From Deltaproteobacteria bacterium (GTDB lineage: Bacteria > Desulfobacterota > Desulfobulbia > Desulfobulbales > Desulfurivibrionaceae), in the NCBI GenBank assembly GCA_021802645.1, contig JAJZRO010000008.1, forward strand, positions 30,557-94,556: a DNA stretch of 64,000 bases, in the 5' to 3' direction. The stretch's first letter is position 1, and each line of letters begins with the position of its first letter. This document shows, piece by piece, positions 1 to 11,909 of this stretch. Under the pieces are notes generated by a model. It had not been told where the DNA came from. It saw only the letters and a program-made list of their open reading frames with translations, and did no database searches. The position numbers and the translations under genes are program-made.

Positions 1-313
1 ACGCGCTGGAGCCCAGCTTGTCGAGCTTGGCTTGTTGGTCCGGATCTCCGGGTTTGCCGAGGATCGCGTCCCACAGCACAGCGGTGTCGCGCCCGTGTTG
101 CTTGGCCACATCGAGGAACGAACCCACCTTATCCAGCGAATTCGCCCACGCGCTGGAGCCCAGCTTGTCGAGCTTGGCTTGTTGGTCCGGATCTCCGGGT
201 TTGCCGAGGATCGCGTCCCACAGCACAGCGGTGTCGCGCCCGTGTTGCTTGGCCACATCGAGGAACGAACCCACGGAATCCAGCGAATTCGCCCACGCGC
301 TGGAGCCCAGCTT
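1..313 (-). repeat. 147-bp in-frame tandem repeat (49 codons), two full copies plus the start of a third
   Basis: On the minus strand the unit begins at 313 with KLGSSAWANSLD and ends QQAKLD. Copy 1 spans 313-167, copy 2 spans 166-20, and copy 3 starts at 19 and runs off the window. The two full copies match at 144 of 147 bases; the three differences are adjacent and replace one whole codon (TCC Ser in copy 1, AAG Lys in copy 2). The unit has a helical, TPR-like look and forms the putative sensor region of the SIR2-STAND protein. The number of further copies is unknown. Confidence 0.95.
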
Positions 314-2473
314 GTGTGGTTCTGCTTCAATAGTTTTCCAAAATCGGATAGCTAGTTCTGGTTGGCCGCCGATTTTCGCCAACCGAACCAAATTGGGGAA
401 GTATGGCAGCGGCAAATCCCAAACTTGTTTAACAAGACCATCCGCCTTCGGAGTTATATATTCCCAAAGTCTTATCAATCGGACGGAGTTTCCGTCACGC
501 CGGAGGCGCGCGCTAAGAACGATTGCAGTCTGCAAGTGTCTTGAGGCGGCAGCGAACAGAATTTGTTCCTCATCAACGGACTGCGTCAGTGCCGCGAGAA
601 TCAGCCGCCCCCATCCTGGTTCGCGCAGTTCAAACTGACGATACTGCTTCAATTGTCCTCGCAGCGTTTGAGCGACGAGTCCGAGTTCGAACAGTTTCTT
701 AGTCTTGCCAGGATGTGGAAGCGCGTCGTTTTGGACGAGCATTTCGAGCTCTTGCGCCCCGAAAGCGGCCAAACAAACCGCGTTTTCAAGCTCTGGAGCA
801 TCAAGTCTGTCGAGCCAGTGTTTACGAACCCATGCGGAGGCTCTTGATGGAGGAAGCGGCCACCTGCCATTCTGAAAATCAGCGAGGCTGTCCAAGACTA
901 CGAAGGTGAACGCATTCAGCGCCGCGCGATAGACGGGATGCCATTCGGCGAGAGCTTCCGTCGGCGGTTCTGGCATGGGCGGACATTTTGCACCACCAAC
1001 CCGGTGATAGATATGCTTCGCCAAGCGGCCCAAGTCCTCTGGAGTGGGCTGAAGAAGGATGGCGGGGTTTGCCGGGTGCCTTTCAAAAAATGTCAAATCC
1101 TCCTCCGGAGTGACGACGACAGGCTGGTGAATCCGAGTTGCCACGAGCAGGAGGCGACCCCGGCTGTCGGAAGGCTTGGCAAGCCATTGCTGCCAGAGTT
1201 GGCGAGCGAGTTCCGGCTTGTAATGAACATTATCGAGAATCAGTAGCGTGCCAGGGCGCGCAAGGCGATTGACCGCCGCAACAGGGCTCGCCTCGACATC
1301 GTCTTCTATCTCTCGTTTGAGGTCGAGATAGAACGGGTGCAGTCGCTGCTCGCGAGAGGTTGCTACCCGGAGAGCGAGAGTGGTCTTCCCGACCGAGGCC
1401 ACATCTATGCAGCAAGCCCAACCATGCGCTTGCAGCCGCCTCAGCAGTTCAGCATCGGCAGCAAAGGCCGGCACGATTCCATCGACGTATTCCTGACGGG
1501 ACGGAAATGGGTCACTCGCCCCAGAAACATGGAAAAGCGGAAATTGGTCATCAACCTGAACGAACGGCCAACAGCGAGCCGCCGGAGTAACTGAGCGAAG
1601 CATGACCGGCAACTCGTCGTGCGACGGATAGCCAATGGACCGCAGGTTAGGCGGCTTGTTTGAACGAGCGGCGATTTCCTTAGCCTTGTCATCACGCGCC
1701 AGAAAGAAGTCTGGCAAACCACTTTCTCCCCATCCTTTGCTCCACTCAAGGAGGCGACCAAGATTTGGGTCATCTAACCCGTCACCACAGCCCACGTAAA
1801 TCCACGACCAGTTGAGCCAAAGTGTCCTGAAAAGTTGCTGTAGATCAACATCGGCAACCACGCGGTCGTAGGATGAGCGCCCCAGCACGATTGAGGACGG
1901 GCGCTGCCAGTGGCCGTGGATATGCAGAATGCCTGCCTTCTGCCGTGTCATGACGCGATGGAAATCCGCGTGTTCCTCCCAAGTCACGGGAGGCGCGCCC
2001 GTGATATCACTGAGAAGATTGTCGTAATTGGTCGTCAGCAGAAGCACCCCCGCTTCGTGGAGGTCGCGCAAGGCGTCTAGCGGGGCTTTGGCTTTCTCCT
2101 CATTCCGAGCCTTGAAACTGGCGAATGCGGTTTCGAGCCATTGGGCAAACACCTTTTCATCAGGCGTGTTGAGGACTTGCTCCACGGCTTCTGCGTGCTG
2201 AAGGGCTGTTTGAAGATTGAAGTGTGAAAACGCCGCGTTCAATGACGATTCAAGTCTATCGCCGTGGCTCTTCGTGAAGTAGTTGATAGCGACAAGATGC
2301 CGAATGCCATGCTTCAATAGACCAAGCCAAGAGGCATGAGATAGGCCCGTCGCGTTAATCGCCACTCCTGTGCCAACGACTACCACCACCTGTGGACGCG
2401 ACCTGTCGATCAGTTTGGCAATCTGATTCAGATCGGGCGAAAGGGACAGTGTAATTGTATTCGAGTTGACCAT
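1..2473 (-). CDS. SIR2-like domain / STAND NTPase / repeat protein, 3' end beyond the window
   Basis: The frame is open from ATG at 2473 to the window edge (824 codons visible), with an in-frame stop 9 codons upstream of the ATG and no clear Shine-Dalgarno. Residues 1-295 resemble a SIR2-like NAD-processing domain: VVVGTG at 31-36, TTNYD with N149, HGH with H186, and GCGDGLDDPN near 228-237. Residues 350-495 resemble an NB-ARC/STAND NTPase: Walker A-like DVASVGKTT (357-365), Walker B LLILDN (410-415), and LLLVATR (441-447) at the sensor position. From 721 there is a 49-residue tandem repeat. Known SIR2-STAND proteins (Avs5-like) degrade NAD when a phage protein binds the C-terminal sensor; that role here is inferred. 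Codons use more A/T than the neighbours, which suggests horizontal acquisition. The full length and any partner genes lie to the left. Confidence 0.85.
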   Translation of the reverse strand, partial: MVNSNTITLSLSPDLNQIAKLIDRSRPQVVVVVGTGVAINATGLSHASWLGLLKHGIRHLVAINYFTKSHGDRLESSLNAAFSHFNLQTALQHAEAVEQVLNTPDEKVFAQWLETAFASFKARNEEKAKAPLDALRDLHEAGVLLLTTNYDNLLSDITGAPPVTWEEHADFHRVMTRQKAGILHIHGHWQRPSSIVLGRSSYDRVVADVDLQQLFRTLWLNWSWIYVGCGDGLDDPNLGRLLEWSKGWGESGLPDFFLARDDKAKEIAARSNKPPNLRSIGYPSHDELPVMLRSVTPAARCWPFVQVDDQFPLFHVSGASDPFPSRQEYVDGIVPAFAADAELLRRLQAHGWACCIDVASVGKTTLALRVATSREQRLHPFYLDLKREIEDDVEASPVAAVNRLARPGTLLILDNVHYKPELARQLWQQWLAKPSDSRGRLLLVATRIHQPVVVTPEEDLTFFERHPANPAILLQPTPEDLGRLAKHIYHRVGGAKCPPMPEPPTEALAEWHPVYRAALNAFTFVVLDSLADFQNGRWPLPPSRASAWVRKHWLDRLDAPELENAVCLAAFGAQELEMLVQNDALPHPGKTKKLFELGLVAQTLRGQLKQYRQFELREPGWGRLILAALTQSVDEEQILFAAASRHLQTAIVLSARLRRDGNSVRLIRLWEYITPKADGLVKQVWDLPLPYFPNLVRLAKIGGQPELAIRFWKTIEAEPHKLGSSAWANSLDSVGSFLDVAKQHGRDTAVLWDAILGKPGDPDQQAKLDKLGSSAWANSLDKVGSFLDVAKQHGRDTAVLWDAILGKPGDPDQQAKLDKLGSSA

Positions 2474-8375: not shown

Positions 8376-11300
8376 TTAAAACGGTACCTTGAGCTTAAGA
8401 CTGACCACCTGATTCGTGTAATCCTGCCGGCCATCGACATCATAACGGGCCGCGATAGTGGTACCATTGGCGGCCAGCATTTCGAAACCAAGGCCGCCCT
8501 GCATGACGACGGTGGCCGGATCGAGCCCTTTGGTGATAAAGGCCGACCCGCCGCCCGCGAAGGTGGAGGTCACCGAGGACTGGCTGGCCAGGAAATCATA
8601 GCCGATCCCCACATGGCCGGTGAGCTTCGCCCGATCGGTGAGGGCATAGGCCGCCCGGCCGCCCGCGGAGACCACCAGGGAATCCTCGCTGTCGCTATCC
8701 ACATGCAGATTAGCAGCACCGGCGCCGGTTTCGGTATAGTCCTCGGCGTTCACATAGGTATATTGGGCGCGAAGATAGGGGGCGAGGGTAGTTTTCTCGT
8801 TCACCTTGTAACGGTGCTCCAATTCCGCATCGAGCAGGGTGTGCCAGCTCGTATAATCGGCACTGGCGATCCGGTTCAGACCGCCGAACTGGATATCCCG
8901 CGAGGAGTCGTTGTCGTTGAGGCCGAAGGCCGCCTGCAGGTTCAGGCTGGTCGCTTCGCTCAATTCGTCGGTGGCATAGAGACTCACCTGATAGGTGTTG
9001 ATGTCGAGATTCGCGCGGGTGATCGGCGAATCGCCGTCTACATCACCCTTGGCAAAGGAGAGCGCCGCACCGAGCCGCCAAGCCTCGCTCACCTTGCCAT
9101 CCGCGCCCATAGCCAACCCGTAGCTGTTGGCGCTGTAACCCGTCACCCCTTTCCTTTCGCTCTGGTCGGTCCAGGAATAGAAGGGCTGCACCCAAAAAGC
9201 ACGATCTTTGAACAACGGCTCGCCGGAAGAAAGGCCGTGCTCCCCGCTCATCCGTTCATGCACCACCTGCGAGCCGCTGCTGCCCGCAACGCCCATCGCG
9301 ATCTGTCCGCCGTTGCCGGCCAAAGCGGGCATGAGCTGCGAGACGGCCTGACCGACCTCGGTGGCCGTGCCAAGCGAGCCCAGGGCATTGAGCACGGTCT
9401 GCATGTCGCCGGTGGCGCCCGCAGTCTGGATCGCATCCAGGGCGCCGGCCACGCCGGCGGCGGCAGGAAAGGCGCCGCCCCCGCTCACCGCCTGAGTATA
9501 GTTCATTCCCTGTTCGGCGGTCAGATCGATGGCATTGCCGTTCACCGTTGCCGTAAAGTTCCACACGGCACTGTTGTCGGTGACGGTGAGGGCGCCGGCG
9601 TGAAGCGTCCCGGCAGAAAGCACATTGCGCAGCACGTTGCCGTTGGCCAGGGTATCGCCGGAGCTGACCTTGACGTCGATCTTGTTGCTGGCAGTCAGAT
9701 CGGCAGTGCCGGTCACCACCAGTTTGCCATAGTTGCTGGCGCTGGAGGCACCGGTCTGGAAGATGCCGCTCGCGTTCTGGGTATAGTCGCCGGTAATGGT
9801 CACCAGATTTCCGGCCGCCACCGAGAGAGTGCCGCTGTTGTGAACACCGTTCGCAACGGTCACGTCGTGGCCCATGTTGAAGAGACCACCGTTGGCGATG
9901 TTGAACGTCCCCACGTCGAAAGTGCTTTCCGAGGCAAAGGTGCCGTTCACATTGACGGTGCCGGTGCCGGAGACCGCATCTGTGATCCTTGCGGCAGTGC
10001 CGTTGATGTTAAGTGTACCGTTGTCGGTTACGCCGCCGCTGGCAGTAAGGGTGTTCCCAAGATCGAGAGTCCCGCCATTGGCAATGGTGAAAGTGTCGAC
10101 GCTGAAGTTATTCTCTGTGGCGAAGGTGCCGTTCACATTCACCGTACCGGTGCCGGAGACCGCATCTGTGATCCTTGCGGCAGTGCCGTTGATGTTAAGT
10201 GTACCGTTGTCGGTTACGCCGCCGCTGGCAGTAAGGGTGTTCCCAAGATCGAGAGTCCCGCCATTGGCGATGGTGAAAGTGTCGACGCTGAAGTTATTCT
10301 CTGTGGCGAAGGTGCCGTTCACATTCACCGTAGAACCGGCCAGGCCGGTCACCGCACCGGTGACCCGGCCGCTGGCGCCATTGAGGTTCAGGGTGCCATC
10401 GGCCAGCTCCACGGCGCCATCAAGAAGGCCGGTGTTGGTAATGACGACCGGACTGGTCGGATTGGTGATATAAATGGCGTAGTTGCCGCCCTGAATGGTG
10501 CCACTGTTGGTGATCCCGCCGTTTACAGCGCTGCTTTGGACACGAATGCCCGTCCCAGCCCCCTGAATGGTGCCGTTGTTCACGACGGCGCCGGTGATGG
10601 TGCTGTTGTTGACGTAGATGCCCACCGAAGTGGAACCCTTGATGGTGCCGGTATTGGTAATGTCTCCACCAATGGAGCTGTTATTCTGCACCATTATCCC
10701 GAACTGCCGCCCTGAGATGATGCCGGAATTGGTGATGTTGCCGGTAACGGTGCTGCTCGAAAGATAGATACCCGCCGAATTGGTGCCGGTGATGTGGGCG
10801 CCGACGTTGTTGACAATGCTGCCGATGTTGCTGTTGCTTACGGCGTAGATACCTGCCTGACCGGTAATGATACCGGAGTTGGTGATGCTGCCGGAGACGG
10901 TGCCGCCCGAAAGATAGATACCTGCCGTACCGGGGGGAGAACCCGCCTGGATGGTAGCGCCCGCATGGTTGGTGATGGAATCCACCGTGCTGCCGTTGCC
11001 GATATAGATGCCGTAAGAACCGCCAGAAATCGTACCGGAGTTGTCAATGCCCCCGGTGACGGTGCTATTGCTGTTGACGTAGATACCCGCCGAGTTGGTG
11101 CCGGTAATGTGGCCGCCCGTGTTGTTGACGATGCTGCCGTTGATGGTGCTGTTATTACTGATCGAGATGCCGTGCTGGTTGCCGGAAATAGTGCCGCTGT
11201 TCTCGATGGCACTGGCCACGTTGCCGGTGGCGCCGACCGTACTGCTGTTGTTGATGGAGATACCGTCCTGGCCGCCGGAAATGGTACCGGCATTGGTGAT

Positions 11301-11909
11301 CTTACCGGTGACGGTGCTGCTCGAAAGAGAGATGCCCGCCGAATTGGTGCCCTTAATAAGGCTGCTCGCCTGGTTGGTGATCCCTTCCACCGTGCTGTTG
11401 TTGATGATATTTATGCCATCATGTGCGCCCTGGATGGTGCCGCTGTTGGTGATGGTACCCACGGCACTTCCCCAATTGATTACGATACCGCCTGCTGTGG
11501 TGCCGGTGCCTGCACCGGAAATGGTGCCGCTGTTGGTGATATTGCCGGCGGTGGAACCGGAGGTAACATAGATCCCCGCGAAGTTACCGGAAATGGTGCC
11601 GTTGTTGGTGATCGTGCCCGCCGCTACAGGACCGGCGGGAATCAAAACAGCGGTGGCGGTACCAGTGCCGCCACCAACAACCCCGCCGTTTGCCGCAGTA
11701 TCCACAATCAGGCTGCCGCTGTTGCCGAGGATAACTTGGCCTGGATTCCCGCCGCTTGCGGTGTTTACAGTATAGGTAAGGAGGCCGCTTGTGGTTGGGA
11801 CAGTTACACCCCATGCCGGGGTGGCGGTGAGGGCCGGCAAGGCCGTGACCGCCAGGCAGGTGGCGGCGATGGCCTGATGCAGATGCTTGCGATGATATCG
11901 TTTGGCCAT
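8376..11909 (-). CDS. Autotransporter with long repetitive passenger (type Va secretion)
   Basis: 1177 residues. The N-terminus is a cleavable signal peptide (basic start, hydrophobic core, likely processing near TPAWG at 30-34). Residues about 40-540 consist of short glycine/asparagine-rich units such as ITNSGTISG, which predict a right-handed beta-helix; 540-770 hold longer repeats. The last roughly 260 residues look like an autotransporter beta-barrel, ending in an aromatic residue (KLKVPF) as outer-membrane barrels do. No protease or adhesin motif was seen, so the surface function is unknown. It is divergent from the sulfotransferase genes, with 202 bp between them. Confidence 0.9.
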   Translation of the reverse strand: MAKRYHRKHLHQAIAATCLAVTALPALTATPAWGVTVPTTSGLLTYTVNTASGGNPGQVILGNSGSLIVDTAANGGVVGGGTGTATAVLIPAGPVAAGTITNNGTISGNFAGIYVTSGSTAGNITNSGTISGAGTGTTAGGIVINWGSAVGTITNSGTIQGAHDGINIINNSTVEGITNQASSLIKGTNSAGISLSSSTVTGKITNAGTISGGQDGISINNSSTVGATGNVASAIENSGTISGNQHGISISNNSTINGSIVNNTGGHITGTNSAGIYVNSNSTVTGGIDNSGTISGGSYGIYIGNGSTVDSITNHAGATIQAGSPPGTAGIYLSGGTVSGSITNSGIITGQAGIYAVSNSNIGSIVNNVGAHITGTNSAGIYLSSSTVTGNITNSGIISGRQFGIMVQNNSSIGGDITNTGTIKGSTSVGIYVNNSTITGAVVNNGTIQGAGTGIRVQSSAVNGGITNSGTIQGGNYAIYITNPTSPVVITNTGLLDGAVELADGTLNLNGASGRVTGAVTGLAGSTVNVNGTFATENNFSVDTFTIANGGTLDLGNTLTASGGVTDNGTLNINGTAARITDAVSGTGTVNVNGTFATENNFSVDTFTIANGGTLDLGNTLTASGGVTDNGTLNINGTAARITDAVSGTGTVNVNGTFASESTFDVGTFNIANGGLFNMGHDVTVANGVHNSGTLSVAAGNLVTITGDYTQNASGIFQTGASSASNYGKLVVTGTADLTASNKIDVKVSSGDTLANGNVLRNVLSAGTLHAGALTVTDNSAVWNFTATVNGNAIDLTAEQGMNYTQAVSGGGAFPAAAGVAGALDAIQTAGATGDMQTVLNALGSLGTATEVGQAVSQLMPALAGNGGQIAMGVAGSSGSQVVHERMSGEHGLSSGEPLFKDRAFWVQPFYSWTDQSERKGVTGYSANSYGLAMGADGKVSEAWRLGAALSFAKGDVDGDSPITRANLDINTYQVSLYATDELSEATSLNLQAAFGLNDNDSSRDIQFGGLNRIASADYTSWHTLLDAELEHRYKVNEKTTLAPYLRAQYTYVNAEDYTETGAGAANLHVDSDSEDSLVVSAGGRAAYALTDRAKLTGHVGIGYDFLASQSSVTSTFAGGGSAFITKGLDPATVVMQGGLGFEMLAANGTTIAARYDVDGRQDYTNQVVSLKLKVPF
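9940..10311 (-). repeat. 186-bp tandem duplication inside the autotransporter gene
   Basis: Two almost identical units (9940-10125 and 10126-10311) encode the same 62-residue segment, beginning NVNGTFATENN and ending AVSGTGTV. The start of a third unit follows from 10312. A diverged version lies on the C-terminal side (NVNGTFASES). The DNA identity suggests recent duplication or active homogenisation. Confidence 0.9.

Follow-up and report, generated by a model that had tools for sequence, protein, structure and literature searches.

The window analysed here is a stretch of 64,000 nucleotides, and at its left edge a minus-strand open reading frame (positions 2–2473), of 824 codons counted from its ATG, runs off the end of the sequence. 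The window starts at position 30557 of contig C19, directly after exactly 100 consecutive N, and this scaffold gap sits inside the repeat array of a gene for a putative SIR2-STAND receptor, whose features are collected in Table 1. Left of the gap the frame goes on for 441 codons in the same repeat phase, through further repeats and a C-terminal domain, to its stop codon. The unbroken frame described in a sequence-only reading of this DNA is real and extends beyond the edge, and the additional repeats envisaged to the left are present as in-phase units across the gap. A single frame across the gap requires an in-phase closure of 20 + 147k bases. The protein would have 1,272 residues if the gap were 20 bases, and must have at least about 1,223 (721 + 3 × 49 + 355), the minimum allowed by one mismatch between the contig ends; these are otherwise identical (273 of 274 bases), and the mismatch suggests that they are different DNA. 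Because it abuts the gap inside the array, the window edge is an assembly break, a point that the sequence-only reading had missed.

Table 1. Features of the receptor gene, with positions in the window
Feature	Position	Strand	Evidence or remark
SIR2-STAND-repeat receptor gene, N-terminal 824 codons	1..2473	-	continues left of the window past the 100-N gap to the stop at C19:29131 (L004:13131)
SIR2-like effector domain, residues 1-300	1574..2473	-	Pfam SIR2_2, active-site residues, FAM118B match
Predicted catalytic N149	2027-2029	-	invariant in 15 proteins
Predicted catalytic H186	1916-1918	-	invariant in 15 proteins
STAND-like NTPase, residues 310-560	794..1546	-	P-loop DVASVGKTT, Walker B LLILDN; alignment with relatives
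Helical region before array, residues 561-721	311..793	-	75-78% identical to L014; helical in AF2 model from residue 640
Repeat unit N1, 49 aa, residues 722-770	164..310	-	unit comparison, AF2
Repeat unit N2, 49 aa, residues 771-819	17..163	-	DNA identical to unit C1 beyond the gap
Unit N3, first 16 bp, cut by the assembly gap	1..16	-	repeat phase

The N-terminal part matches the Pfam family SIR2_2 (PF13289) at 3e-14, with 53.7 bits against a cut-off of 24.5, and the effector motifs TTNYD (N149) and HGH (H186) had been placed at the right positions; N149, Y150, D151, H186 and G187 are invariant across 15 aligned SIR2-STAND and SIR2 proteins. The closest PDB sequence to this part, by phmmer, is human FAM118B (2e-16), a vertebrate sirtuin reported to be kin of antiphage sirtuins (PMC12700824). 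PADLOC matched the receptor to LmuA, PDC-S25, Dsr1, ThsA, PDC-S01 and SIR2. At the level of sequence, a SIR2 NADase-like domain with a complete predicted active site is confirmed.

The NTPase that follows gives weak, sub-threshold matches, which point to a divergent, STAND-like domain: the match to AAA_14 in Pfam (0.0016) lies below the cut-off, as does that of a distant relative (L063, 29% identical) to nSTAND_NTPase5 (7.8e-4), and Pfam gave no match to nSTAND3 (PF20720) up to E 1. The GKTT (residues 362–365) and LLILDN motifs noted earlier are present; the domain is described here as STAND-like, and NB-ARC is unmatched in Pfam. The P-loop is without the usual first glycine, which counts against the present reading of the receptor; the whole motif is the same in the close relative described below. 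The proposed architecture of SIR2 domain, STAND-type NTPase and helical repeat sensor is supported, with the NTPase matched at sub-threshold level only.

The highly uniform short repeats reported for the sensor are likewise real. Each unit comprises 49 residues (147 bp), LGSSAWANSLDKVGSFLDVAKQHGRDTAVLWDAILGKPGDPDQQAKLDK, and units within the gene share 98–100% DNA identity. Units N1 and N2, both complete inside the window, agree at 144 of 147 nucleotides, the three differing bases making up one codon, at position 12; N2 and its counterpart C1 across the gap agree at 147 of 147. The final unit of the array is half degenerate, and ahead of that last half-unit the changes within the array are at unit positions 2 and 12. 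In an AF2 model of residues 640–824 (mean pLDDT 72) each unit forms three helices. For the whole 824-residue protein, modelled from three sequences, mean pLDDT was 40, and therefore no structural claim is made for the SIR2 domain or the NTPase. When the repeat model was compared with known folds nothing significant emerged (best Foldseek E 0.009; VIA Z up to 8.5, the usual level for helical repeats), and the predicted fold may be called an alpha-solenoid in general only. TPR-like entries, among them the near-identical TPR-like repeat of Podospora, came up at E 0.03 and are no evidence of kinship, and weak matches of the repeats to RtxA and LcrE were taken as chance. Elsewhere in the window, an autotransporter-like protein (8376–11909, minus strand, identified by eye) has two or more near-identical internal copies of the repeat FATENNFSVDTFTIANGGTLDLGN....

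Six short peptide patterns, run against 84,980 species represented by a single genome each, revealed only one close relative (L014), 79% identical, on a contig of a Verrucomicrobiales MAG that likewise stops inside its repeat array. The unit of this homologue is FVKATRETSLENVGSFLGVAKEHKRDTAPLWDALLGKPGEPDQPTKLAE, and its second copy is identical to the first at all 63 available bases. Between the two genes dS is about 0.3–1.2, and the backbone shows 75–86% identity with dN/dS of 0.11–0.34; the values for the NTPase (0.16) and the SIR2 part (0.19) indicate that the receptor gene has been kept by selection. The repeats show 55% identity and dN/dS of 0.56, and unit positions 1–12 show 17% identity and dN/dS of 1.15, on 12 codons only, a value that one block replacement could also produce. 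Over one unit 29 of 49 residues agree, the backbone figure being about 82% (Fisher p 0.0006), and 10 of the 20 differences fall in positions 1–12 (p 0.0014); both p values come from one gene pair, the 1–12 boundary was picked after viewing the data, and neighbouring positions are perhaps non-independent. It is this behaviour of the repeats between genes that is the unusual point of the receptor, and units that are uniform within and different between two genes match what concerted evolution together with diversification would produce.

The homologue is split between two contigs, C181 and C577, which we infer to carry the halves of one gene. C577 opens with a homologous C-terminal tail, 70% identical, followed by a TIR-APAZ gene (3e-61) and a short pAgo gene (6.5e-168), and a SoFic-like gene lies upstream of the homologue on its N-terminal contig. 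The SIR2 part of the homologue is without about 97 residues through a deletion and frameshift at L014:8440-8500, which counts against the present reading of the receptor and represents either a pseudogene or an error in assembly of the MAG.

More distant searches returned no relative of the receptor from IMG/VR by peptide patterns, the four matches to the repeat pattern there all being unrelated proteins, and plasmids gave distant SIR2 domains only, with no match to the C-terminal part. A hit to that part in G505 has, by eye, the look of a glycan-branching-type enzyme and was set aside as a chance match. SIR2-STAND proteins with SIR2 domains 30–40% identical to that of the receptor recur in Verrucomicrobia with NACHT and HEAT or FGE-sulfatase domains. 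In an Azotobacter protein (L012) adjacent HEAT units are 82–88% identical, and uniform sensors may therefore recur in the SIR2-STAND class. A SIR2 and FGE-sulfatase protein at L067:742-2610 has two 34-residue units that are 94% identical.

The receptor gene lies within a 5.06-kb block, both flanks of which align at 82–86% to a genome of the same genus (G001) that has 2.3 kb of other genes at this site, with HigBA-like, transposase-like and nucleotidyltransferase-like frames as named from their translations. The low GC content remarked on earlier was borne out (0.54–0.58 in the block against mostly 0.61–0.69 in the left flank), and no close match to the receptor was present in 57 genomes of the same order or in about 297 of the phylum. 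A match of 79% in another (inferred) phylum, with dS non-saturated in several regions, makes horizontal transfer the simplest reading, and the gene was apparently acquired from unrelated bacteria; the proposal of recent acquisition is supported, and the block is absent from G001. The companion proposal of a defence island to the left failed, no defence genes being found there beyond one VapBC-type pair, a MazE-like antitoxin and PIN-domain toxin that adjoin the receptor in the same block (L004:12092-12885; C19:28092-28885). Another block, spanning about 3.2 kb (L004:3062-6271; C19:19062-22271) and encoding FMN reductase, Lcl-domain and 4Fe-4S proteins, has no match in G001, where 46 bases separate the flanks.

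The receptor is probably a single-protein, NLR-like and NAD+-destroying anti-invader system, most likely antiphage, whose recognition array is homogenised by recombination. The architecture, together with the SPARTA neighbour of the homologue, makes an antiphage role plausible. The repeat array and C-terminal domain would bind an invader-derived or invader-altered molecule; as in other members of its class, the STAND-type NTPase would then be free to oligomerise, driven by NTP, and the clustered SIR2 domains, to judge from their invariant catalytic residues, would hydrolyse NAD+, so that the infected cell stops growing in what would be an abortive defence. Identical DNA within a gene and different units between genes suggest that recombination between 147-bp units homogenises the array, and one change in the variable segment could in this way spread to all units and alter recognition.

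Another explanation, which we regard as rather unlikely, is that this is an ordinary SIR2-STAND defence protein with recently duplicated repeats, whose uniformity is neutral and plays no part in changing recognition. Few units have been seen, and tandem duplication alone yields identical copies; set against this, two genes separated by the dS given above are both uniform within yet different between, and their divergence is concentrated in one segment of the unit. It is less probable still that the protein serves allorecognition or acts as an internal stress switch. Heterokaryon incompatibility is indeed governed by fungal NLRs whose repeats behave in this way (PMC12222747, PMC4986451), but the receptor lies at a variable site alongside toxin-antitoxin genes, its homologue adjoins a SPARTA operon, and Avs5, the SIR2-STAND protein tested so far, acts on phage (PMC12931631). 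That the uniform repeats are an artefact of scaffolding which joined halves of different genes, as the 100-N gap and the near-identity of the contig ends might suggest, is highly improbable when both sides share repeat phase and frame, the ends differ at one base, N1 and N2 are both complete in the window, and the homologue's genome has both the N-terminal part and the C-terminal tail, with its contig broken at the same array.

If the preferred reading of an antiphage receptor with a recombining array is extended, it is possible, though we put this only tentatively, that there are bacterial SIR2-STAND receptors with a self-homogenising array of hitherto undescribed three-helix, 49-residue units, which move between phyla and whose recognition is quickly rewritten by recombination rather than by diversity-generating retroelements, in convergence with fungal NLRs. 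A uniform array that recombines would offer a bacterial innate immune receptor a simple means of keeping pace with changing phages; it would also explain breakage in short-read and metagenome assemblies, and hence why such genes have been overlooked.

The SIR2 NADase ThsA needs a signal molecule. DSR1, DSR2 and ThsA have the active-site N and H in common with the receptor (PMC11087589), with weak PADLOC matches, and match it in the SIR2 domain only, their regulatory parts being different. The SIR2-NACHT-HEAT proteins L058 (Verrucomicrobia) and L012 (Azotobacter) combine SIR2_2 (37% and 30% identical, respectively) and a repeat sensor with a STAND NTPase, where the receptor has a STAND-like one, but their NTPase is of the NACHT type, their repeats are HEAT repeats, and the match is confined to the SIR2 part. 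Avs5, a SIR2-STAND protein that hydrolyses NAD+ upon phage sensing and whose C-terminal repeats are essential, is the nearest functional analogue: it shares with the receptor SIR2_2 (PF13289), C-terminal helical repeats, TTNxD and predicted NADase activity, and has a STAND-type NTPase where that of the receptor is STAND-like (PMC12931631). Membership of Avs5 itself is not supported, since nSTAND3 is unmatched and the Avs5 model of the defence library is absent among the PADLOC matches; the receptor has the canonical HG where about half of Avs5 proteins have NG, its C-terminal part is longer, and its near-identical 49-residue units are a further difference, in line with the earlier remark on the sensor.

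In the repeats the closer parallel is with fungal NLRs of high internal conservation, whose uniform repeats recombine and carry a few hypervariable sites (PMC4986451, PMC12222747). Bacterial WD40 proteins with high internal conservation are already known, as cited in PMC12222747; for a SIR2-STAND protein with a 49-residue repeat no such report was found in the literature within reach, which excludes most subscription papers. Two features of high internal conservation are seen here, as near-identical repeats within a gene (144–147 of 147 nucleotides; 63 of 63 in L014) and as units that differ between homologues at a subset of positions, in one gene pair only. The receptor has another effector, a three-helix repeat of 49 residues against 24–42 in the fungal proteins, and a bacterial host, and is represented by that one pair. 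Illumina data do not assemble the fungal near-identical arrays (PMC12222747), which matches the breaks in the arrays of both genomes here. Like het-d/het-e and the NB-ARC/TPR and NACHT/ANK proteins of Podospora, the receptor is tripartite with a near-identical repeat sensor, and it appears to share with them concerted evolution, a few variable positions and repeats that break short-read assemblies (PMC12222747, PMC4986451).
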